Source: Deltaproteobacteria bacterium (GTDB taxonomy: Bacteria > Desulfobacterota > Syntrophia > Syntrophales > UBA8958). From it: DNA of 55,278 nt. Of this stretch, positions 970-29,406 are shown in pieces (position 1 is the stretch's first letter; the number at the start of each line of letters is the position of its first letter). A program made the translations under genes and the position numbers. The notes below the pieces were generated by a model that was not told the origin of the DNA, did not search any database, and worked only from the letters and a program-made list of their open reading frames with translations. The stretch spans positions 1-55,278 of the forward strand of contig JAKPCH010000062.1 of NCBI GenBank assembly GCA_029553375.1. The letters are read 5' to 3'.

Positions 970-1245
970 TCAGCCCACGAGGTTCTTCAGGGCGTCCACG
1001 ACGGGGTTGGTGAAGAGGGCCACCAGGACCGTGTAGAGGGCGAAGGCCCCCACGGCCTCGTTCGTGTACATCTTCTCGTACTTGTGCTTCAGGGAGATGA
1101 TGATCATCCCGCCCACGATGAGGCAACCGAGCTGGAAGTAGGGGAAGTTCCCCACACCCGCCGCCGCGTACTCGGCGAAACCGAAGGTCGCCGTCATCAA
1201 AACCACCGCTGCCGCCACCACCAGGGTCCCTATCGTCTTCTTCAT
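970..1245 (-). CDS. Small exported membrane protein of unknown function
   Basis: This is a 91-residue protein with a clear signal peptide (MKKTIGTLVVAAAVVL, likely cut after an Ala near residue 24) and two further hydrophobic stretches at about residues 37-51 and 67-81, separated by a charged segment rich in Lys and Tyr. A strong ribosome binding site (AAAGGAGG) sits about 9 bases before the ATG. I recognise no family. The gene stands alone, with its own terminator downstream and about 210 bases of non-coding DNA upstream, so it is probably transcribed singly and perhaps abundantly. It could be a small inner-membrane subunit or a holin-like protein, but nothing in the sequence decides this. 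Confidence 0.75.
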   Translation of the reverse strand: MKKTIGTLVVAAAVVLMTATFGFAEYAAAGVGNFPYFQLGCLIVGGMIIISLKHKYEKMYTNEAVGAFALYTVLVALFTNPVVDALKNLVG

Positions 1246-1459: not shown

Positions 1460-3637
1460 TCACGCCCCCGGCGTCCCCCGACGGCCGAGGAGGGCGGCGG
1501 CGGGGCAGAGGGCGCCCAGGGCGGCCCCCGCCAGGGGGAGGTAGAGACCCCAGAAGGGGATGAGGAGCACCCCGCCGAGGAGGGCGGCGAGGGACCCCCC
1601 GAGGAGGTCGGCACCGTAGAGGGCGGAGGCGGCGGCCCGGACGTCGCCCGCCCTCAGGTGGGCCGCGGCGGCGAAGAGGGCGCCGACGAACCAGCCCGCC
1701 GCCCCCAGGGCGAGGGCGACGGAGGGCAGGCCCGCGGGGAGGCCCCGAAGGACGGCGAGGCCCAAAAGAAGAAAAAAGAAGGGTTGGGCGACGACGAGGG
1801 CCCTGATGGCCCGGCCCGACGGGGGGCGAAGGGACAGGGACCAGGCGCCGAGGGCCAGGCCCCCCATGAAGCTCATCAGGAGGAGCCCCACGTCCTGGAA
1901 GAGGATCCCCGTCTTGATCTGGTAGTGCATGATGAGGACCCCCTCGGCGAGCATGCCGTTGAAGCCGGCGACGGCGGCGAGGACCGCCGGGAAGGAGCGC
2001 CTCGGACCGAAGGAGGCCGCGGCGAGGGCGGCCATCGCCAGGAGCCCCGCCGCGGGGCCGACGCGGTAGATCCATTTCTCCAGGTCCCTGGCGAAACCCG
2101 GGGCCGAAGCGGCGGGCACGAAACGGGAGAGCCAGAGCATGGCGGTGAAACGGTAGGAAACGGGCCGCGCGTCCCTGTTGGGGGGCGTGTCGCCGAAGGC
2201 GGCGAGGAGGTCCCTGGTCCGCCGGAAACGGTCGTTCTCGTAGAGATAGGCGAGGTAGGGGGGGGTGACGAGGCGGCCGGGGATCCCCCGTTGTCGCCAG
2301 CGCCCCGTGGGTTCCTCAGCCGTCGTCGGCAGGGGGGCGTCGGAGGCCGTGACGACGTTGGTGCCCCCGGGGAGAAAGACGACGGCGGGGAAGACGTCCC
2401 CGAGGGCCCGATGGACGGAGGCCATCTTCATGGCCACGACGCCCGTCCAGAGGTTCTCCGCCCCCTCGAGGCGCAGGGCCAGCACGCCCCCCGGGTTCAG
2501 GGCCCGGCGGCAGAGACGGAAGAACTCCTCCGTGTAGAAGCCGTTGGACCAGCCCGAGAGGGGTTCCGGCATGGCGACGACGATGAGGTCGTACTGCGGG
2601 CCCGAGGCGAGGTGACGCCGGGGGTCCGCGTAGAGGGTCCTCACCCGGGGGTCGGCGAGGGAGGCCCGGAGGGGGGCGGGCAGGTAAGGCGCCGCCGTCT
2701 CGAAGAGGAAGGGGTCGATCTCGACGTGGTCCACCGCCTCCGGCCCGTGGTGGAGGAGCTCCGTGACCATCCCCTGGACGCCCCCGCCCAGGAGGAGGAC
2801 GCGGCGGGGTGAGGGGTGCTGGAGGGCCGCGGGGTGGATGAAGGCCTCCGCCTCCGTCCCCTCCGACTCGTAGAGGAGGGCGTCGTCGAAGAAGAAGACG
2901 ACCTGGGACTCGGGGAGGGCGACGGTGACGCGCCCGTAAGGGGTGTCGCGGACGGCGGCGAGGTGGGGGTGGTTCCACCTCGTCGTGGCCCTGTCCAGGG
3001 GTCCGGTGAAGAACAGGACGGCGAGGGCGGCCAGGGCGACCGAGAGGGCCGCGAGGCGGCTTAAGCCCCCCCCGGACCCCCGGGGCCCTGTCCAGAGGGC
3101 CGCCGCGGCCGCCGTGAGGGCCGTAAGGAAGGAAAGGGAGAGGTTGGAGAGGCCCGCGGCGGGGGAGAGGGTCGCGGCGAGGGCGCCGATAAGACCGCCC
3201 AGGCCCTCGACGGCGTAGGCCCGCCCCAGGGGACCCCCGCCGGGGCCGTCCCGGCGGAACCCCGCCGCCGCCAGGGGGAAGAGGAGACCCGCCGCCACAG
3301 CGACGGGCAGGACCCCGGCGGCGGCCGTCAGGAACTGCTCCCCGAGGGAGGGGAAGGTCCCGGGGGTGATGCCGAGGATGTCGCGTCCCCCCCGGATCAG
3401 GACCGCCTCGAGGGGGGTCAGGACGGCGGCCGCCGTGAAGAGGCCGGGGATCGCCCCGGGCCGGGAGAAGATGGGCAGGCGGGACAGCCACGCCCCCGCG
3501 GCGCCGCCGCCGAGCCAGAGGGCGAAGGCGAAGAGATAGACGAGTTCCGTGCCGAAGGAGGCGACGGTCAGCTCCCTGAGGATGACGACCTGGGCCAGGA
3601 GACAGACGAGGCCCGTGGCGAAGAGGGCCGAGGTCAT
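1460..3637 (-). CDS. Polytopic membrane protein with a central spermidine-synthase-like domain
   Basis: This 725-residue protein has three parts: an N-terminal membrane region (about residues 1-215, six or seven helices), a soluble spermidine-synthase-like Rossmann domain (about 225-450), and a C-terminal membrane region (about 480-720). In the central domain VLLLGGGVQGM is the nucleotide/SAM loop, HVEIDP the acidic end of strand 2, and YDLIVVAMPEPL replaces the catalytic Asp-rich DVII.D loop of true aminopropyltransferases. Many bacteria carry such fused 'spermidine synthase/MFS-like' proteins of unknown substrate; the changed loop argues against classical polyamine synthesis. It is the last gene of a three-gene operon with an AmmeMemoRadiSam system, only 16 bases after the previous stop. 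Confidence 0.8.
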   Translation of the reverse strand: MTSALFATGLVCLLAQVVILRELTVASFGTELVYLFAFALWLGGGAAGAWLSRLPIFSRPGAIPGLFTAAAVLTPLEAVLIRGGRDILGITPGTFPSLGEQFLTAAAGVLPVAVAAGLLFPLAAAGFRRDGPGGGPLGRAYAVEGLGGLIGALAATLSPAAGLSNLSLSFLTALTAAAAALWTGPRGSGGGLSRLAALSVALAALAVLFFTGPLDRATTRWNHPHLAAVRDTPYGRVTVALPESQVVFFFDDALLYESEGTEAEAFIHPAALQHPSPRRVLLLGGGVQGMVTELLHHGPEAVDHVEIDPFLFETAAPYLPAPLRASLADPRVRTLYADPRRHLASGPQYDLIVVAMPEPLSGWSNGFYTEEFFRLCRRALNPGGVLALRLEGAENLWTGVVAMKMASVHRALGDVFPAVVFLPGGTNVVTASDAPLPTTAEEPTGRWRQRGIPGRLVTPPYLAYLYENDRFRRTRDLLAAFGDTPPNRDARPVSYRFTAMLWLSRFVPAASAPGFARDLEKWIYRVGPAAGLLAMAALAAASFGPRRSFPAVLAAVAGFNGMLAEGVLIMHYQIKTGILFQDVGLLLMSFMGGLALGAWSLSLRPPSGRAIRALVVAQPFFFLLLGLAVLRGLPAGLPSVALALGAAGWFVGALFAAAAHLRAGDVRAAASALYGADLLGGSLAALLGGVLLIPFWGLYLPLAGAALGALCPAAALLGRRGTPGA

Positions 3638-3653
3638 CCGCGGCGGCCGTCCC

Positions 3654-5201
3654 TCAGCGGCGCCCCCCCTCCCCCTCGCCGAACACCTCGGCCTGGAAGG
3701 TCTGAAAGCGGCAGCCCTCCTTCCAGCTTTTGGGCGGCAGGCCTGCCTTCATCGCCAGGTGGTCGAGCATCTCCTCCTTCGTCCAGTTCTGCTCCACCGC
3801 CACCTGGGGGAGGAAGACGGCGCTGCGCCCGCCCTTCGTCAGGAGGACCCCGTCCCGGCCCACGACGATCTCCTCCGGTCCCGAAACGGGTTTCATCGGT
3901 GTCAGGACGGACAGCTCGATCTCGATGTCCTTCAACTCCTCGGCCTTCACCGGGGGGAAACGGGGGTCGTTGAAGGCCGACTGGAGGGCCATGGAGCCCA
4001 CCAGGTCCGCCAGGGGGGTGTCGGGGGCCATGTGGCCGATGCAGCCCCTCAGCTGGCCGTGTTTCTTCAGGGTCACGAAGACGCCCCGCTTCTGCCGGGC
4101 CGCCTCCGAGAAGCCCCGGGCGGCCGGGACGGTCCTGAGGGTGAGGAACTGTTCGATCGTCTTGCGGGCGTGGCCCAACAGGGCCCTCCTGTCCTCCGGG
4201 GTGAGGTCCCCGCCGCCCCCCGGGCCCCGCTCCTCCCCCGTGGGCGGGGGCGCCGCCTCCCTCGTCATCACCACGGCCCCGTACCCCACCACCCGGCTCC
4301 GGTCGCCCACGGCGGCGTCGCCCGAGTTGGCGTAACTGACCACCCGGGCCCCCTTGGCCCCGAGGGCCCGGGCGGCGGCCTGGGCGGCCATGATGGGGGC
4401 CTCGCCGCAGGCGGCCGTGTGGAGGTCCCGGAGGGAGAGGGACTCGATCTCCCGGATCCGGCGGCTCAGGGTCCGGGGGTCGAGGGAACAGACGGCCTCG
4501 AGGGTCTGGCGGTCGGCGCGGACGGCGTCGGCGTAGGAGGGGTAGTGGGAGAGGTCGGAACTGGCGACGATCAGGGCCCGCTTCCCCTTGACGACCTTCG
4601 CCAGGGCCTCGCCGAAGCGGCGGCACAGCTCCACGTCCGGCCTCCCCACGACGAGGGGCAGGATCTTGGCCTGGGGGAAGAGGACCTGGACGAAGGGGAC
4701 CTGGACCTCGATGGAGTGCTCCCGGCCGTGGGCGGCGGAGTTGTGGAGACAGTCGGGTGATTCCCTCAGGAGCTCCCCCTCCGTGTCCTTGTCGATCCAG
4801 ACGACCCCGAGGGGCGTTTCGAAGGCGTCGCCCGGGTAGGCGGCCACGGCGTTGCCCACGGCCCCCGTGTGGTTCGTGCCCAGGATCACGACGAGGTCGT
4901 ACCGGCCGCCGGCGGCCTGGCGCCAGGCGTCGGCGGCGACCTGGCCGGAGTAGATGTAACCGGCATGGGGGGCGACGATGGCGATGACCTCGTCACCCCG
5001 GGGGGAGGGGGCGTCGGCCAGGAAGGCCTCGACGGCCTTTCTCAGGACGCCCGGGTTGTCGGGATAGAACTGGCCCGCCACGGCGGGGGGCCGGATGACG
5101 ACGTTCTTCGGCTTGTCGGCTCTGATGACCATGGCTACCCCCAGGAGGAGACAAAGGGAAAAGACGGAAAATAACAACCACTTTCTCACGGCTACGCCCA
5201 C
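3654..5201 (-). CDS. AmmeMemoRadiSam proteins B and A fused: MEMO1-family plus AMMECR1 domains, membrane-anchored
   Basis: This 515-residue protein joins two domains of the AmmeMemoRadiSam system. Residues about 35-310 form a MEMO family domain, related to LigB extradiol dioxygenases and iron/copper-binding MEMO1: APHAGYIYSG carries the first metal His, ILGTNHTG and EHSIEVQVPF follow, and SSDLSHY and SGDAAVG close it. After a Gly/Pro-rich linker, residues about 340-505 are an AMMECR1 domain with its LRGCIGH signature. The N-terminus (RKWLLFSVFSLCLLLGVAMVI) is a signal anchor, so the protein should face the periplasm. In many genomes the domains are separate genes; fusion is known. The start lies inside the last codons of the preceding radical-SAM gene (10-base overlap), implying coupled translation. 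Confidence 0.93.
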   Translation of the reverse strand: MGVAVRKWLLFSVFSLCLLLGVAMVIRADKPKNVVIRPPAVAGQFYPDNPGVLRKAVEAFLADAPSPRGDEVIAIVAPHAGYIYSGQVAADAWRQAAGGRYDLVVILGTNHTGAVGNAVAAYPGDAFETPLGVVWIDKDTEGELLRESPDCLHNSAAHGREHSIEVQVPFVQVLFPQAKILPLVVGRPDVELCRRFGEALAKVVKGKRALIVASSDLSHYPSYADAVRADRQTLEAVCSLDPRTLSRRIREIESLSLRDLHTAACGEAPIMAAQAAARALGAKGARVVSYANSGDAAVGDRSRVVGYGAVVMTREAAPPPTGEERGPGGGGDLTPEDRRALLGHARKTIEQFLTLRTVPAARGFSEAARQKRGVFVTLKKHGQLRGCIGHMAPDTPLADLVGSMALQSAFNDPRFPPVKAEELKDIEIELSVLTPMKPVSGPEEIVVGRDGVLLTKGGRSAVFLPQVAVEQNWTKEEMLDHLAMKAGLPPKSWKEGCRFQTFQAEVFGEGEGGRR

Positions 5202-6388
5202 ACCCCGGCGATCTTGCGGCGGCAGAAGCGGCAGCGGCCGTCGGTGACATTGTTTTCCAGAACGAAGAAACCCACGCGTGAGATTAGCACCTTTTTACAG
5301 GACGGACAATAGGTGTGGTTCCCCGGGTGGTTGGGGACGTTGCCGACATAGACGTATCTCAGGCCCCGCTCCATGGCCACGGCCCGGGCCCGCTCCAGGA
5401 CCCGCACGGGGGTGGGGGGGAGGTGGCGCATGCGGTAGTCGGGGTGGAAGCGGCTGAAGTGGAGGGGGACGTCGGGACCCACCTCGCCGTGGACCCAGTC
5501 CGCCAGGCCCCGGATCATGGCGTCCGAGTCGTTGAGGGTGGGGACGACGAGGTTGACGATCTCCAGGTGGACCCCCGAGCGGGCGACGGTCTTGATGGTC
5601 TTGAGGACCGGTTTCAGCTCCGCCTTGCAGACGTCACGGTAGAAGGTCTCGCTGTACCCCTTGAGGTCGATCTTGATGGCCGACAGGACGGAACACAGCT
5701 CCTTGAGGGGGGCGTCGTTGATGTAGCCGCAGCTGATCAGGACGCCCCTGATGCCGCGCCGCCGCGCCTCCCGGGCCGTGTCGACCATGTACTCGAAGAA
5801 GACCGTGGGCTCGTTGTAGGTGAAGGCGATGACGGGGTCGCCCTCGGCGGAGGCGGTCCTGACGAGGGTCTCGGGGGCGGTGTAGGCCACGGGGTGATCC
5901 TCGGGCCGCGCCTGGGAGATCTGCCAGTTCTGGCAGAAGGGGCAGCTCAGGGGGCAGCCGGCCGTGGCGAGGGAGAAGGCCGCCGCGCCGGGCAGGAAGT
6001 GGTAGAAGGGCTTCTTCTCGATGGGGTCCGTGTGGACGGCCACGGGCCGGCCGTAGACCAGGCTCACGAGCTCGCCGTCCACGTTCATCCGCGCCCGGCA
6101 CCGCCCCCGCTGGCCGGGGAGGAGGACGCAGCGGTGGGGACACAAGAGACAGCGGACCAGGCCGGCGGGGTGCTCATAGGCCCCCTTGAGCCCCTCGGAG
6201 GGGTCGTGGCAGAGACGGCAGTTTCCGCCCCCCGTCACGGCGGAGGCCCAGTGGCGGGCCCGGTGGTGACCGCCGCCCCCCGGGCCCAGGGATCCGAAGA
6301 CGCCCGGGGGCGACACGCCCCAGACCGCCAACGCCAGCGCCCCTTTGCCCAACAGGGCCAGGAGGTCCCTTCGGGAGATCCCCCCCAT
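5192..6388 (-). CDS. amrS: AmmeMemoRadiSam system radical-SAM enzyme with twin-arginine leader
   Basis: A 398-residue radical-SAM protein of the AmrS family, whose reaction is unknown. The 4Fe-4S motif is C145-x3-C149-x2-C152 (GCPLSCPFCQNW). Four to six further cysteines at 57, 60, 80, 83, 87 and 97 precede it, and a CPSC...CRFC zinc-ribbon-like tail ends the protein. I start it at 6388: GGTGAGGAC lies just upstream, and the first residues MGGISRRDLLALLG form a Tat-type signal (SRRDLL, then a hydrophobic core). An upstream in-frame ATG at 6526 would add 46 residues that look non-coding. A Tat leader on a SAM-dependent enzyme is odd, since SAM is cytoplasmic; it may act as an anchor. First gene of the operon. 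Confidence 0.92.
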   Translation of the reverse strand: MGGISRRDLLALLGKGALALAVWGVSPPGVFGSLGPGGGGHHRARHWASAVTGGGNCRLCHDPSEGLKGAYEHPAGLVRCLLCPHRCVLLPGQRGRCRARMNVDGELVSLVYGRPVAVHTDPIEKKPFYHFLPGAAAFSLATAGCPLSCPFCQNWQISQARPEDHPVAYTAPETLVRTASAEGDPVIAFTYNEPTVFFEYMVDTAREARRRGIRGVLISCGYINDAPLKELCSVLSAIKIDLKGYSETFYRDVCKAELKPVLKTIKTVARSGVHLEIVNLVVPTLNDSDAMIRGLADWVHGEVGPDVPLHFSRFHPDYRMRHLPPTPVRVLERARAVAMERGLRYVYVGNVPNHPGNHTYCPSCKKVLISRVGFFVLENNVTDGRCRFCRRKIAGVWA

Positions 6389-10247: not shown

Positions 10248-10970
10248 ATGCGCCGTGATCACAGGCCCTACGTCGTCAAGAGGGCCTACAACGCCTTCCA
10301 GGCCTGGTACGCCCGGCGGTTCCTCGCCCCCCAGTTCGAGCGCCTGGGGGCGGGGTGCACCTTCATGAAGCCCTGGCACGTGGAGGTCTTCGGGGGGCCC
10401 GTCTCCCTGGGTGACTACGCCACCGTCATCGCCGCCCCCGACAAGAAGGTCCGTCTCACCGTCTGGTCCACCTTCGAGGGGGGCGGTTTCATCGAGATAG
10501 GCCCCTACGCCCTCCTCTGCCCGGGGTGCCGCATCAGCGCCGCCACGGGGGTCAGGGCGGGGGAGGGGTGCATGTTCGCCTCCGGCGTCCTGGTGACGGA
10601 CGCCGACTGGCACGGCATATACGACCGCGGCCTCTCCGTGGGGGAGACGCGCCCCGTCGTCATCGGCGACAACGTCTGGATCGGCGACGGCGCCATAGTC
10701 GCCAAGGGCGTGACCATCGGCGACAACAGCATCGTCGGGGCCGGGGCCGTCGTCGTGCGGGACATCCCCGCCGACGTCATCGCCGCCGGGAACCCCGCCG
10801 TCGTCGTGCGGTCCCTCGACAAGGACCGGGAGATGAAGACCCGCAGGGATTTCTTCGCCCAGCCGGAGGTCTTGGCGGCCCGCTTCGACGCCATCGACCG
10901 GGCCCTCCTGGGGGGCAACACCTGGTGGGGCTGGTTCCGGTCCCTCCTCTTCCCGCGGCGGGGGGACTGA
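10248..10970 (+). CDS. Left-handed beta-helix acyltransferase
   Basis: A 240-residue hexapeptide-repeat acyltransferase. Isoleucine/valine-led hexapeptides run from about residue 80 (IEIGPYALLCPGC) through IGDNVWIGDGAIVAKGVTIG and SIVGAGAVV to the family end motif IPADVIAAGNPAVVV near 185. A DADWHGIYD segment supplies the likely catalytic histidine. Such enzymes acetylate or acylate sugars using acyl-CoA. The extended C-terminus with Trp-rich ending (NTWWGWF) is unusual and may face the membrane. RBS GGGGGGATCGG lies close to the ATG; 12 bases separate it from the upstream gene. Confidence 0.85.
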   Translation: MRRDHRPYVVKRAYNAFQAWYARRFLAPQFERLGAGCTFMKPWHVEVFGGPVSLGDYATVIAAPDKKVRLTVWSTFEGGGFIEIGPYALLCPGCRISAATGVRAGEGCMFASGVLVTDADWHGIYDRGLSVGETRPVVIGDNVWIGDGAIVAKGVTIGDNSIVGAGAVVVRDIPADVIAAGNPAVVVRSLDKDREMKTRRDFFAQPEVLAARFDAIDRALLGGNTWWGWFRSLLFPRRGD

Positions 10971-10972
10971 CG

Positions 10973-12559
10973 ATGCGCGTGGCCGTCATCGCCCCCCCCT
11001 ATCCCCTCTCCGAGGCCCCGGCGCCCCCCCTGGGCGTCACCTACGTGGCGGCGGCCTTCGCGGCGGCGGGGGCGGAGGTGAGGATCTTCGACTTCATCGT
11101 CTCCCGTTATCACAGGGAAAAACTGGCGGCCCTCCTCGAGGACTTCCGGCCCGACGTCGTCGGCGCCACCTCCGTGACCCTCAACTACCCCCGGGCGGCG
11201 GCGATCCTCGACGAGGTCAAGGAGCTGTCACCCCGGACCCTGACCGTCATGGGGGGTCCCCACGCCTCCTTCGACGCCCCGGCGGTCCTGAGTGACCACA
11301 GGGGGATCGACGTGGTCGTCATGGGGGAGGGGGAGGAGACGGTGCGGGAACTCATGGCCTCCTCCTTCGATCCCCGTTTCTTCCCCCGGATCGACGGGAT
11401 CGCCTACCGGCAGGACGGGGGTGTGATCGTCAACCCCCCCCGGGGTTTCATCGCCGACATCGACTCCATCCCCACCCCCGCCCGTCACCTCCTGCCCCTT
11501 TCCCGTTACCGCGCCTTGGGTTTCCCCATCAGCGTCATCACGGGGCGGGGGTGCCCGTACCGCTGCATCTTCTGCCAGGGGCGGCGCATGGTGGGGGGGA
11601 GGATGAGGAAAAGGAAGGTCTCTTCGGTGATGGAGGAGATCGAGGAGATCCTCTCCTACGGCATCGACCGGATCAACGTGGCGGACGACCTCTTCGTCTC
11701 GGACCGTGAACGGGTGCGGGAGGTTTGCGACGAGATCCGCCGCCGGGGCCTGAGATTCGCATGGAGCGCCTTCGCCAGGGTGAACACCGTGGATCTCGAG
11801 ACCCTGGAGCGGATGAGGGAGGCAGGGTGCGACAGCATCAGCTTCGGCGTCGAGTCGGCCAACCGGGGGATCCTCAGGACGATCCGCAAGGGGATCACGC
11901 CGGAGGAGGTGGTGAGGGCCGTGGAAATGGCCCGGGCGGCGGGCCTTTTGGTCCACTGTTCCTTCATCGTCGGCCTCCCGGGGGAGACGAGGGAGACCCT
12001 CGCCGAGACGGCGTCCTTCGCCGCCTCCCTCGGCTGTTACTACGGTTACCACCACCTGGCCCCCTTCCCCGGGACCACGGTCCGGGAGGAGGCCGCAACC
12101 TACGACCTCGAGATCCTCACGGACGACTGGACCCTCTACGACGCCAACCGGGCCGTCGTCCGGACCTCGGCCCTCTCCCCGGAGGACCTCGACGCCTTCG
12201 TGGCCGCCTTCGAGGGGGAGATCGAGAAGGAGTGGAACAAGCTCCTCGACGGCTACCGGGCGGGGACGAACTCCCCCGGGGACGATCTACGGGTGGAAGG
12301 TCATTTCCGGACCCAGTTGACCTACAGGCTCCTGGCGGACGATCTCCTCGAGGAGCACGGCACGGTGCCGAGGGGCCGGGACGGGGGCCGGGAGGCCCTG
12401 TTCCGGGCCGTGGCGGCCCTGACGGGACACGACCCGGGCCTCGTGGCGAGGACCCTGGGCGATTTCATCGCCCGGGGGTACATCAGGGGCCGTGAGGAGG
12501 GCGACGCCGTGAGGTGGTACTGGACCCACAACAACCGCCTCGACTCCTTCCCCCTTTAG
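10973..12559 (+). CDS. B12-binding-domain radical-SAM protein
   Basis: A 528-residue protein with an N-terminal cobalamin-binding-type Rossmann domain (about 1-135; VMGGPHASFD and VVVMGEGEET are typical although the classic DxHxxG is missing) and a radical-SAM TIM barrel with C194-x3-C198-x2-C201 (GRGCPYRCIFC). The last 120 residues form a separate domain with a winged-helix look. Relatives include P-methylases, hopanoid methylases and tail-methylating enzymes; substrate cannot be predicted here. The start at 10973 follows the previous stop by 2 bases; the open frame extends upstream to 10526, but that part overlaps the acyltransferase and is a shadow. Last gene of the cluster. Confidence 0.88.
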   Translation: MRVAVIAPPYPLSEAPAPPLGVTYVAAAFAAAGAEVRIFDFIVSRYHREKLAALLEDFRPDVVGATSVTLNYPRAAAILDEVKELSPRTLTVMGGPHASFDAPAVLSDHRGIDVVVMGEGEETVRELMASSFDPRFFPRIDGIAYRQDGGVIVNPPRGFIADIDSIPTPARHLLPLSRYRALGFPISVITGRGCPYRCIFCQGRRMVGGRMRKRKVSSVMEEIEEILSYGIDRINVADDLFVSDRERVREVCDEIRRRGLRFAWSAFARVNTVDLETLERMREAGCDSISFGVESANRGILRTIRKGITPEEVVRAVEMARAAGLLVHCSFIVGLPGETRETLAETASFAASLGCYYGYHHLAPFPGTTVREEAATYDLEILTDDWTLYDANRAVVRTSALSPEDLDAFVAAFEGEIEKEWNKLLDGYRAGTNSPGDDLRVEGHFRTQLTYRLLADDLLEEHGTVPRGRDGGREALFRAVAALTGHDPGLVARTLGDFIARGYIRGREEGDAVRWYWTHNNRLDSFPL

Positions 12560-21817: not shown

Positions 21818-21850
21818 GGGCCGACCCACCTTGGGTGGGCGGCCCCTTTT
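21818..21850 (+). terminator. Intrinsic terminator after the acyl-CoA synthetase
   Basis: A long GC-rich stem (21818-21830 with 21834-21845, one bulge, short loop) is followed by CTTTTCCTTT. The next gene begins only 15-20 bases later, so some read-through is possible. Confidence 0.75.
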
Positions 21851-21864
21851 CCTTTCCCTCCCCG

Positions 21865-23316
21865 ATGAACGTTCTCCTCGTCAACCCTTTCTTCGACGGC
21901 CGGGCGGAGGTTCCTCCCCTCTCCCTGGCGGCCGTCGCCGCCGGTGTTATCGAAGACGGTTTTACCGTGGAGATCCTCGATCTCGACACCCGCGCGGAGG
22001 ATGAGGGCCGCCGGGTATTGACGGAGGCCCTTGAAAGGTTGTCGCCCCGTGTCGTCGGCGTTACCTCCCTGTCCCACAATTTCGCCGGGGCCCTGCAGGT
22101 GTGTCGTGCCGCCAAGGAGCTCTCACCGTCGGCCGTGACGGTCCTGGGGGGCGTCCACGCCACGGTGTGCCACGAGACGCTCCTTTCGTCCCACCCGGAA
22201 CTGGACATGATCTGCCGGGGAGAGGGCGAGGAGGCCTTCCGTGACATCTGCCGTGCCGTTTACGTGGGGGTTTCCCCCGAGGACGTCACGGGGGTCAGTT
22301 ACCGTTCGGGAAGGGGTGTCGTCCATAACCCCCCCCGGACGCCCGCGGCCCTCGATGACAACCCCCTGCCCGCCTTTCATCTCCTCCAGGGGGGCGGTTA
22401 TCGCACCTGGAGTCTCTCTTCGAGCCGTGGTTGTCCCCACCGTTGCTCCTTTTGCTCCTTGCGGGGTCTCTACGGGGGGAGGGTGCGCTGGGAACCCCTG
22501 GGGAAGATCATGGAGGAGTTGGACCTGCTGCGTCGTCTGGGGGCGAGGAGGGTCATGTTCACGGACGACAACCTCACGGCCAAACCGGACCGGGTGAGGG
22601 ACCTGTGCCGCCGCATCGCCGCCTCCGGCCTGGGCGGGGCCATGGAGTTTTACGCCCAGGGGCGCATCGACGACTTCCGCCGTTTCCCCCTCATGGCCTC
22701 ATGGTTGAGCGAAGCAGGTTTCAAGGCCGTTTACGTGGGCGCCGAGTCCGGTTCCCCGGCGGTGTTGGCCAGGTACGGCAAGGACCTCACCCCCGCCGAC
22801 ATCGTCCGGGGCGTCGAGGTCTGCGTGGAGCAGAACCTCATGCCCGTCGTGAGCTTCATCCTCTTCGGCCCGTGGGACACCGTCGAGACCGTCCGGGAGA
22901 CCCTCCGTCTCGCCCTGGCCCTGTTCGAGAGGGGGGCGGAGATCGCCTACACCGAGTCCCTCGTCCCCTTCCCGGGGACGCCCGTCAAAGAAGAACTCGC
23001 GGCGGAGGGGAAATGGCTGGAAACGCAGGGGGTCTATCACTTCAAGAGTTGCACGGGCCTCGACACGGACCGTCTCTATGACCTCCTCGACCTGGCGCGA
23101 TCCATGAGCCGCGCCGTCTATGACGCCGACCCCCTCTACCCGTGGCGCCGGGTCTACCACGAGTTCCGCCTTCTCCTCTCCCTCCTGGAGGGCGAGGTCC
23201 CGGAACCGTACCTGAGATGGCGCCGGGAAGAGGCCGACCTTTCCCAAGGGGCCTCCCAGACGAGACGATCCATCGACGAGGCCCTCGCCGCCCTCGTGCC
23301 GGATACCCGCCTTTAG
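21865..23316 (+). CDS. B12-binding-domain radical-SAM protein
   Basis: A 483-residue protein of the B12-binding radical-SAM group. Residues about 1-140 are a Rossmann cobalamin-type domain (VTVLGGVHATVCHE, MICRGEGEEAF); C190-x3-C194-x2-C197 (SRGCPHRCSFC) is the cluster motif; FTDDNL and VGAESGSP are conserved barrel strands. The C-terminal 100 residues have no mark I recognise. The start at 21865 is chosen because homology begins at its MNVLLVNPFFDG; the frame is open to 21835 but that would sit in the terminator. It ends tail to tail with the crotonase gene, the two stops sharing bases. Substrate unknown. Confidence 0.85.
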   Translation: MNVLLVNPFFDGRAEVPPLSLAAVAAGVIEDGFTVEILDLDTRAEDEGRRVLTEALERLSPRVVGVTSLSHNFAGALQVCRAAKELSPSAVTVLGGVHATVCHETLLSSHPELDMICRGEGEEAFRDICRAVYVGVSPEDVTGVSYRSGRGVVHNPPRTPAALDDNPLPAFHLLQGGGYRTWSLSSSRGCPHRCSFCSLRGLYGGRVRWEPLGKIMEELDLLRRLGARRVMFTDDNLTAKPDRVRDLCRRIAASGLGGAMEFYAQGRIDDFRRFPLMASWLSEAGFKAVYVGAESGSPAVLARYGKDLTPADIVRGVEVCVEQNLMPVVSFILFGPWDTVETVRETLRLALALFERGAEIAYTESLVPFPGTPVKEELAAEGKWLETQGVYHFKSCTGLDTDRLYDLLDLARSMSRAVYDADPLYPWRRVYHEFRLLLSLLEGEVPEPYLRWRREEADLSQGASQTRRSIDEALAALVPDTRL

Positions 23317-28024: not shown

Positions 28025-29218
28025 CTAATCCCTGGTTCGCGGTTGGAAGAGCCTCTCCCCGATGCGGGTGCCGTCGAATCCGTATGCCTCCAGGCCCGGG
28101 ACGATGACCCGGGCCGTGGGGACGCCCAGATCCTCAACGGTGAGATCGACGACGATCACCCGCGTGAGGCCCGCCTCTCTCAGGCGGTCCGTCACCGCCT
28201 CGATATCCGCCAGGATGTCCATGGTGTAGTGGGAAGGGAGGTCGCCGAGGGTGATAGGTTTCTGGTCTTCCTCGTCCTTATAGATCTCCGGCTCCAGATA
28301 GGTGATCGGCCTTTCCCTGAGGCGGGAAGGACCGAAACGCCTCAAAAGAAGGGCTCTGGTCGTCGCCGCCTCCATCATGGCCCGACCGGCGGCCACCATG
28401 GGGTCCAGGTGGGCGCCGAATCCGTCCATGGGCATCATGTCCGGCTGTTCCAGATCGATTATCCGGGCGGCGACCACGGGGATGCCGAGATCCGAGGTGT
28501 AATCGGCAAGGGTCACCTCGACCCGGGCCTGGTGGAGGCGCCGGTGGATCTCGTGGAGGAAATCCCTGTCCGACGCCGAGGGTATGATCTCCGGGGGGGT
28601 CAGGCGCGCGAACTTGACGATGCTCCAGGCATCCCTTTCCACGACCTCGAGGAGACCGTGATAGACGGCCTCCTCGAGGGTGTTTCCCGAGGCGATCCCG
28701 TTGGTGTGGGTGGCCATCACGACGATCCCGTCCTCATGGAAGGGGTGGTAAACGGCGCAGGCGGGGACGAGGATCTCTTCGCCGTTGACGATGTCATAAC
28801 CCCGCACCCAGTTGATCTGGACCTCGGGGTCGTATTCGCTGAACCGGGGGAGAATCAGGTCCCGCGGGTCCAGGAGGGTGTGCCTTCCCCTGAGCTCCCG
28901 CCAGGAGCCCCTGACGAGGCGGTCTGAATAGTCACTTTTGAATTCGGAACAGTGACGCTCCACCGCCTCCATGGTCAGGGAGACCTGGGCCTGGACGGGG
29001 GAGATTCCCTTCCCCGTGTGGTAGGTCTCTGAGCCGTCGGGGCGGAGGCGGCGGCAGGAGAAGACGGGGAGGCCGATCCTGTCCCATACTGATATCTCAT
29101 GAAAATCTTCCATCCCCAGTCTGTGCCTCATGCCCGCCACGAAGGCGAGGGTGTCCTCCGGCATCCGGCAGCGGTGGGTGTCGTGGATATAGACCTTGGG
29201 ACAGGCTTTCAGCTCCAT
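28025..29218 (-). CDS. YcaO-family ATP-dependent enzyme (non-azoline type)
   Basis: A 397-residue YcaO protein. YcaO enzymes activate amide carbonyls with ATP, making azolines, amidines or thioamides. Seen here: GKGISPVQAQVSLTMEAVERHCSE at about residues 69-92 (the Sx3ExxE ATP/Mg motif), GNTLEEAVYHGLLEVVERDAW at about 190-210 and a QARVEV/ALLLRRFG core. The C-terminus ends LFQPRTRD and lacks the PxPxP tail of cyclodehydratases in azole peptides, which points to the thioamide or other branch. There is no precursor peptide with a leader in sight and no TfuA. The start at 29218 has GAGGAGG 8 bases upstream; the frame runs open to 29362 but crosses the promoter. Confidence 0.9.
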   Translation of the reverse strand: MELKACPKVYIHDTHRCRMPEDTLAFVAGMRHRLGMEDFHEISVWDRIGLPVFSCRRLRPDGSETYHTGKGISPVQAQVSLTMEAVERHCSEFKSDYSDRLVRGSWRELRGRHTLLDPRDLILPRFSEYDPEVQINWVRGYDIVNGEEILVPACAVYHPFHEDGIVVMATHTNGIASGNTLEEAVYHGLLEVVERDAWSIVKFARLTPPEIIPSASDRDFLHEIHRRLHQARVEVTLADYTSDLGIPVVAARIIDLEQPDMMPMDGFGAHLDPMVAAGRAMMEAATTRALLLRRFGPSRLRERPITYLEPEIYKDEEDQKPITLGDLPSHYTMDILADIEAVTDRLREAGLTRVIVVDLTVEDLGVPTARVIVPGLEAYGFDGTRIGERLFQPRTRD

Positions 29219-29246
29219 TAAAATACCCTCCTCGGCGTGCTTGACG

Positions 29247-29260
29247 CCTATAGCACAGAA
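29247..29260 (-). promoter_or_regulatory. Extended -10 promoter of the YcaO operon
   Basis: Reading leftward, TGC-TATAGG (TATAGG at 29252-29247) forms an extended -10 element; no good -35 lies upstream. Start near 29240 would leave a 22-base leader containing the GAGGAGG site. Confidence 0.4.
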
Positions 29261-29282
29261 TCGACGAAAATCCCCTCCCTTT

Positions 29283-29296
29283 TTTGAAATTTCAAA
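29283..29296. promoter_or_regulatory. Perfect 14-bp palindrome, candidate operator between divergent promoters
   Basis: TTTGAAATTTCAAA is a perfect palindrome lying directly against the -35 box of the rightward thiolase promoter (29297) and about 30 bases upstream of the leftward YcaO -10. Its place suits a dimeric repressor or activator controlling both operons. No regulator gene lies in the neighbourhood. Confidence 0.55.
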
Positions 29297-29325
29297 TTGA
29301 CAACGGCCTCCTAAAGGGTTATAGC
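29297..29325 (+). promoter_or_regulatory. Sigma-70 promoter of the beta-oxidation operon
   Basis: TTGACA (29297-29302), 17 bases, TATAGC (29320-29325): perfect -35, four of six at -10. Start near 29332, giving a leader of about 300 bases before the first thiolase gene. The gap 29219-29632 otherwise holds no acceptable gene. Confidence 0.65.
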
Positions 29326-29406
29326 TCTGTGGGTCAATGGCAGAAACACTCTCCATTCCCAAGATCTCGGAATCAGTGAAAGCTTGTTCATAGCCTGTCG
29401 ATATGG

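Follow-up and report, generated by a model that had tools for sequence, protein, structure and literature searches.

Whether radical-SAM (S-adenosylmethionine) chemistry can take place outside the cell membrane is the question raised by one operon of a Deltaproteobacteria bacterium (Desulfobacterota; Syntrophales; UBA8958). This chemistry is generally taken as intracellular, since the cytoplasm is where SAM and low-potential reductants are produced. We know of no case in which it occurs outside the cell membrane. The operon lies in contig JAKPCH010000062.1, of which the 55,278 nucleotides are called the window here. It is composed of three genes on the - strand, i.e., the radical-SAM enzyme AmrS, a MEMO-AMMECR1 fusion, and a membrane protein with a spermidine-synthase-like (SpeE-like) domain. 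The first two genes belong to AmmeMemoRadiSam, a near-universal and unexplained family, of which AMMECR1 and MEMO1 are also found in humans. To our knowledge, no reaction has been assigned to it.

All three defining proteins of the AmmeMemoRadiSam system (TIGR04335/TIGR04336/TIGR04337) were found above the curated cut-offs in a single operon, at the coordinates given in a preliminary description of the window. Compared with the known system, the proteins are predicted exported or anchored forms, MEMO and AMMECR1 are fused, a membrane protein of the major facilitator superfamily with a SpeE domain (MFS-SpeE) is added, and the AmrS of the window's clade bears a c-heme-like motif. The system is very probably located outside the cytoplasmic membrane, as strongly inferred from sequence and structure prediction, because the leaders with the orientation of their charges, the side on which the SpeE domain is predicted, the c-heme-like motif and the partners of DsbD type beside Sec-leader AmrS all point there. 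These lines of evidence are partly independent, and they strongly support the earlier proposal, which places the system at the inner membrane or outside it. With less confidence, it is considered fairly probable that the operon encodes an extracytoplasmic form of AmmeMemoRadiSam in which SAM is handled by the MFS-SpeE partner. In the literature searched, the name AmmeMemoRadiSam appears in the text of some papers but in no title or abstract. The comparison suggests that the exported, anchored set is a variant of the known system not described in the literature found by search. Genome contexts of the Memo clade were reportedly treated in Burroughs et al. 2019, which may already describe part of the present context.

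AmrS scored 372.9 bits for TIGR04337 (cut-off 220) and 60 bits for PF04055. The TIGR04337 match starts at residue 75, past a twin-arginine leader at the N-terminus (MGGISRRDLLALLGKGALALAVWG). This leader, recognized before as a Tat-type (twin-arginine translocation) SRRDLL leader, is present and conserved across the clade. By its sequence AmrS is a predicted Tat substrate, with a twin-arginine motif, a hydrophobic stretch and TatC encoded in the genome (255 bits). A start-site artefact was excluded by the clade-wide conservation of the leader, and the next Met is found only at residue 101. The AlphaFold2 (AF2) model of AmrS has a predicted local distance difference test score (pLDDT) of 90.7. 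The best PDB match by sequence and fold was pyruvate formate-lyase activating enzyme (3cb8, 3c8f), which has the radical-SAM core in common with AmrS. However, the activating enzyme has about 245 amino acids (aa), without the leader and without the extra N- and C-terminal Cys clusters of AmrS, and the TM-score was only 0.5 over AmrS. The activating enzyme is cytoplasmic.

The AmrS loci comprised 80 named ones drawn from GTDB species representatives and, from the window's order, 20 of the exported type together with 20 leaderless paralogs. A further 40 stretches were taken from the wider phylum, and three of them were set aside as too short. AmrS-like matches were found in 379/395 genomes of the phylum and were above the cut-off in 364. 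A leader was present in 97 of the 158 AmrS loci; the named loci were chosen by similarity to the window's AmrS, and this fraction is no census. By a rule that covers RRDFL/RREFL leaders, the 97 leaders were classed as 74 RR, 7 KR, 2 RK and 14 Sec; checked by eye, with the Sec list included, 79 proved to be Tat-type and 18 Sec-like. In 77/97 leaders the charge was more positive on the N side of the hydrophobic stretch, as is expected for an AmrS that lies outside.

An unrooted tree was built from 156 AmrS cores, with the leader left out of the alignment. The leader label required 4 changes on this tree versus 47 in shuffles. Leaderless AmrS (59/156 rows) mostly form a separate deep clade and are usually encoded at other loci, and a second AmrS of this kind, absent from the preliminary description, was found on another contig of the same genome (locus L002). 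Leaderless AmrS orthologs at the same locus had been named in advance as the finding that refutes an exported AmrS. They did not occur, and each of the 26 rows in the window's clade bears a leader. The exported part of the tree covers Thermodesulfobacteriota, Acidobacteriota, Aminicenantota, Latescibacterota, Omnitrophota, Planctomycetota, Bacteroidota, Verrucomicrobiota, Armatimonadota and others. Two more radical-SAM genes of the genome were weakly AmrS-like, at G000:C83:15963-16841 (69 bits) and G000:C55:136639-136935 (35 bits).

The second protein had been described as a MEMO-AMMECR1 fusion with an N-terminal anchor, and both parts of this description were recovered. It scored 264.8 bits for TIGR04336 (cut-off 26) and 181.8 bits for TIGR04335 (cut-off 99), and residues 8-26 are its only hydrophobic segment. 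The H/H/C metal-ligand positions of human MEMO1, presumably iron or copper ligands, align to His/His/Cys in the fusion. Among the surveyed loci, MEMO was found within 6 kb of 56/97 leader-bearing versus 7/61 leaderless AmrS. The MEMO genes beside leader-bearing AmrS were on the same strand in 56/56 and within 60 nt in 49. A hydrophobic N-terminal extension was found in 54/56 of these proteins, and fusion to AMMECR1 also in 54/56.

A membrane SpeE gene was likewise found within 6 kb of 50/97 leader-bearing versus 4/61 leaderless AmrS (p about 1e-9, by Fisher tests that ignore relatedness). When only loci flanked on each side by 5 kb or more of DNA were counted, the numbers were 32/49 and 3/43. 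None of the 20 leaderless paralogs of the window's order was near SpeE or MEMO. In the SpeE-centred survey, AmrS was near 24/40 fused SpeE loci, 19 of these AmrS being leader-bearing, and the rough expectation is about 1% (about two AmrS per 3 Mb, for a 15-kb stretch). The preliminary description had proposed such a neighbourhood survey, with a co-occurrence no higher than chance as a refuting outcome. The adjacency of AmrS and SpeE proved to be far above chance, whichever of the two genes was taken as the starting point. Co-occurrence of MEMO and SpeE at the genome level was uninformative as a test, since MEMO is present in 379/395 genomes.

Other genes were also observed near exported AmrS. 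DUF362 proteins, mostly with Tat-like leaders, were found near Tat-leader AmrS at 10 loci (L046:7665-8726, L052, L066, L068, L079, L080, L085, L091, L210 and L212) and at 0 of the sampled loci of leaderless AmrS. A DUF6599 protein with a signal-like N-terminus was found at L052:7211-7837, L062, L064, L080 and L091, which are loci of Aminicenantes and Acidobacteria.

The membrane protein of the window matched PF01564 (64.3 bits), which alone was reported in the Pfam scan at E 0.001. Its AF2 model (pLDDT 89.2, predicted template modelling score 0.90) is composed of seven helices, the SpeE domain and seven helices. The helical part matched MFS carriers, i.e., SV2A (9okg; Z 28.0, 338 residues aligned, root-mean-square deviation (rmsd) 3.5) and MHAS2168 (8pnl; Z 20.6). 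The membrane part aligns whole-length with these transporters at 14 to 17% identity, but the window protein has the SpeE-like domain between its two middle helices. The fold of this domain matched aminopropyltransferases up to Z 29.7 (3anx, 276 residues, rmsd 2.4). The domain is predicted outside because seven helices precede it and because of the positive-inside charge. The mean number of Lys and Arg was 19.9 in the would-be inside loops versus 3.2 outside, with the same sense in 25/25 homologues.

The residue roles of the SpeE domain were taken from spermidine synthases. The fold and the nucleoside-binding acids are common to the window's domain and the polyamine aminopropyltransferases (PDB 1uir, 3anx); among 25 sequences, the E306-equivalent was kept in 22 and the D338-equivalent in all 25. 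Unlike spermidine synthase SpeE, the window's domain is without the catalytic Asp and the Asp that binds the amine of decarboxylated SAM, is inserted between membrane helices and is predicted outside. The latter Asp was found in 0/25 (one sequence has Glu, and the window has Val287), and the catalytic Asp in 4/25. The D355-equivalent of the window is Ala355, which bears out the altered catalytic loop of the preliminary description. An N-R-[FY]-[YF]-T motif is conserved instead. The scores were below the SpeE cut-offs (TIGR00417, 74.9 versus 249.55 bits; PRK00811, 93.7 versus 260 bits), and a real spermidine synthase was ruled out by these scores and the lost acids. The domain is thus no spermidine synthase, but it may retain binding of SAM or methylthioadenosine.

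The SpeE-like protein had been thought to supply or export a substrate. This would fit the MFS fold, the kept adenosyl residues and the lost aminopropyl residues. SAM handling by MFS-SpeE is a reasonable possibility, if not quite an even one. Other cargo has to be weighed against it. The system could be extracytoplasmic while MFS-SpeE is no more than a scaffold for the complex, or exports or modifies the substrate of the system, which might be a polyamine, a nucleoside or a lipid. MFS carriers transport many compounds, and MHAS2168 is a homologue of Rv1410, which we take to be a lipid transporter. The conserved NRFYT motif sets the protein apart from true spermidine synthases and might accommodate a different ligand. 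However, SAM is the best fit for an adenosyl-binding fold that keeps its nucleoside residues and lies beside a SAM-consuming enzyme, although this argument is not decisive. Other cargo or scaffolding is a serious contender, slightly short of an even chance.

Between the leader and the core of AmrS, a c-heme-like insertion was found that the preliminary description had missed. Residues 57-73 read CXXCH-x11-H. The CXXCH was found in 21 leader-bearing relatives including the window, from Syntrophales, Latescibacterota, Aminicenantota and Acidobacteriota. In 21/21 of these sequences, a His lies four residues before the start of the AmrS core, and the loop between varies. The 21 sequences were picked by CXXCH, and what counts as independent in this result is the second His, with loss of the entire insertion as the alternative state. 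Heme of the c-type is attached outside the cytoplasm only. With a CXXCH, an axial-ligand candidate, a leader and cytochrome c assembly genes in the genome (PF01578), AmrS has the sequence features of a predicted c-type cytochrome, and the insertion is likely to be a c-type heme site. A metal knuckle, binding zinc or an iron-sulfur cluster and no heme, would also suit a position immediately ahead of the core's Cys cluster. The AF2 model is weak at the insertion, and five members of the window's clade are without it, so the heme-like motif is not essential. On the other hand, the CXXCH His and the second His at fixed spacing around a variable loop are typical of a bis-His c-type heme site, and the leader and the assembly genes are present. 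The knuckle is therefore regarded as doubtful.

A different partner was found beside the Sec-leader AmrS. A DsbD/CcdA-type membrane domain (PF13386), as in thiol-reductant carriers, was adjacent or fused to AmrS in 14/18 Sec-like versus 0/79 Tat-type AmrS, and it is absent at the window's locus. Enzymes pass through Tat in the folded state and with their clusters, whereas Sec carries chains that are still unfolded. The association makes sense because the many cysteines of a Sec-exported AmrS would need reduction outside. In a tree-based test of independent pairs, Sec leader versus DsbD, only 3 pairs were available, too few to reach significance. In a Lentisphaeria genome, a DsbD_2 (CcdA-like) membrane domain is fused in frame to the radical-SAM domain of AmrS (L086:7452-9317). 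In two other cases, DsbD_2, FMN_bind and Fer4_5 are joined in one protein beside a Sec-leader AmrS (L082:5585-7249 and L044:6784-8709). This protein may conduct electrons across the membrane.

From these parts, the following course can be proposed for the extracytoplasmic AmmeMemoRadiSam variant. AmrS would be exported by Tat as a folded, cluster-loaded enzyme, and MEMO-AMMECR1 would be held by its anchor so that the catalytic domains face outward. The third protein would be a 14-helix MFS-type carrier that holds the spermidine-synthase-like domain on the outer face, where this domain probably binds an adenosyl compound and transfers no aminopropyl group any more. The MFS part would export SAM or a close relative, and the outer domain would receive and present it. 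AmrS would be reduced from outside the cytoplasm, in the window's clade perhaps via its own c-type heme, and in the Sec-exported relatives perhaps through DsbD-type relays. It would then cleave SAM outside and make the 5'-deoxyadenosyl radical. Because its fold is closest to the pyruvate formate-lyase activase, AmrS may act on MEMO-AMMECR1 or on a substrate bound there. The complete scheme, in which an outside radical-SAM enzyme receives its electron via its own c-type heme and its SAM from an MFS exporter with a SpeE-derived receiver domain, is unlikely to hold in every part. A deep branch of many phyla that works outside the membrane would imply SAM export and an outward electron supply that are yet undescribed. 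The heme, the DsbD relay and MFS-SpeE would be direct handles on the reaction of the family, and the long-standing question on AmmeMemoRadiSam becomes testable.

Several findings weigh against the extracytoplasmic variant with SAM handling. The literature searches gave no periplasmic SAM pool and no exported radical-SAM enzyme. SpeE is missing within 6 kb of about one third of the leader-bearing AmrS whose flanks are complete, and 16/40 SpeE loci are without AmrS nearby. Leaderless AmrS were found at five SpeE loci (L230, L231, L232, L240 and L241), and three leaderless AmrS adjoin an anchored MEMO (L185, L187 and L193). The DsbD link comprises few independent events (3 pairs, about 2 in the same way and 0 opposite). 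The five clade members without the insertion count here too, as does the low AF2 confidence in the heme-like region, around residues 21-70.

Of the leaderless loci, four (L230, L231, L232 and L241) come from one family of the phylum, and their AmrS (MKEAYLYEK...) lies a few kb from a fused SpeE/MFS gene. It is possible that these represent an intermediate or another use of the SpeE protein.

The leaders and anchors might do no more than fix the proteins to the membrane's inner face, with cytoplasmic work on a membrane-associated or lipid substrate and the usual supply of SAM and reductant. Radical-SAM enzymes are generally known to need SAM and strong reductants, both cytoplasmic, and leaderless AmrS are common in the tree. 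But the twin-arginine consensus and the N-positive asymmetry predict an N-in/C-out orientation, the prediction puts the SpeE domain outside in all 25 homologues, the c-heme-like motif is present and DsbD-type partners occur solely beside Sec-type AmrS, which makes inner-face tethering improbable. Ordinary co-localisation, with SpeE as a polyamine gene next door by chance, is very improbable, for although gene order drifts and SpeE is on the opposite strand in 17/50, the AmrS near SpeE loci far exceed the rough expectation in many phyla, the catalytic acids are lost, and the operon arrangement is far above chance because the 2.4-Mb genome has a single MEMO gene and two PF01564 genes and the set recurs in many phyla.

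Table 1. Coordinates of the three operon genes and their features in the window.
Feature	Position	Strand	Details
AmrS, AmmeMemoRadiSam radical-SAM enzyme with export leader	5192..6388	-	398 aa
Tat-type leader of AmrS, residues 1-32	6293..6388	-	sequence; leaders in 26/26 of the window's AmrS clade
SRRDLL motif of AmrS, residues 5-10	6359-6376	-	
c-heme-like insertion of AmrS, C57-R-L-C-H61 ... H73	6170..6220	-	CXXCH 6206-6220, His codon 6170-6172
Radical-SAM CX3CX2C of AmrS, C145, C149, C152	5933..5956	-	invariant in a 40-sequence alignment, mostly of leader-bearing sequences
MEMO-AMMECR1 fusion	3654..5201	-	515 aa, GTG start
N-terminal hydrophobic segment of MEMO-AMMECR1, residues 8-26	5124..5180	-	mean Kyte-Doolittle 2.57 over 19 residues
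MEMO domain, residues 37-311	4269..5093	-	TIGR04336 / PF01875
AMMECR1 domain, residues 340-507	3681..4184	-	TIGR04335 / PF01871; solved relatives 1zq7, 1vaj
Polytopic spermidine-synthase-like / MFS-like protein	1460..3637	-	725 aa
First seven transmembrane helices, residues 2-219	2981..3634	-	AF2 helices; hydropathy over 25 homologues
SpeE-like domain, predicted extracytoplasmic, residues 226-506	2120..2962	-	odd helix number before; positive-inside counts
Altered catalytic loop VVAMPEPLSGWSNGFYT, residues 353-369	2531..2581	-	Asp at the catalytic-Asp equivalent in only 4/25
Last seven transmembrane helices, residues 513-718	1484..2101	-	AF2 helices

The genes are closely spaced (Table 1), and a ribosome-binding-like GGTGAGG was found just 5' of the AmrS ATG. 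Two overlaps had been described, of which the first stands, as the AmrS and MEMO-AMMECR1 genes share 10 bases. The second, of 16 bases, was ruled out by the coordinates. The MEMO-AMMECR1 stop ends at 3654 and the SpeE-like ATG is at 3637, leaving a 16-base gap (3638-3653), and there is no in-frame start upstream of this ATG for the SpeE-like gene. The Rfam scan of the window gave no match.

Downstream of the operon, a 91-aa hydrophobic protein with a signal-like N-terminus was found at 970-1245 (-), with only a weak match to Bax1-I. Elsewhere in the window, two B12-binding radical-SAM proteins are encoded at 10526-12559 (+) and 21835-23316 (+), with glycosyltransferase and coenzyme A (CoA)-metabolism genes around. 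A YcaO protein was found at 28025-29362 (-), near fatty-acid oxidation genes, i.e., thiolase, acyl-CoA dehydrogenase and CoA transferases.

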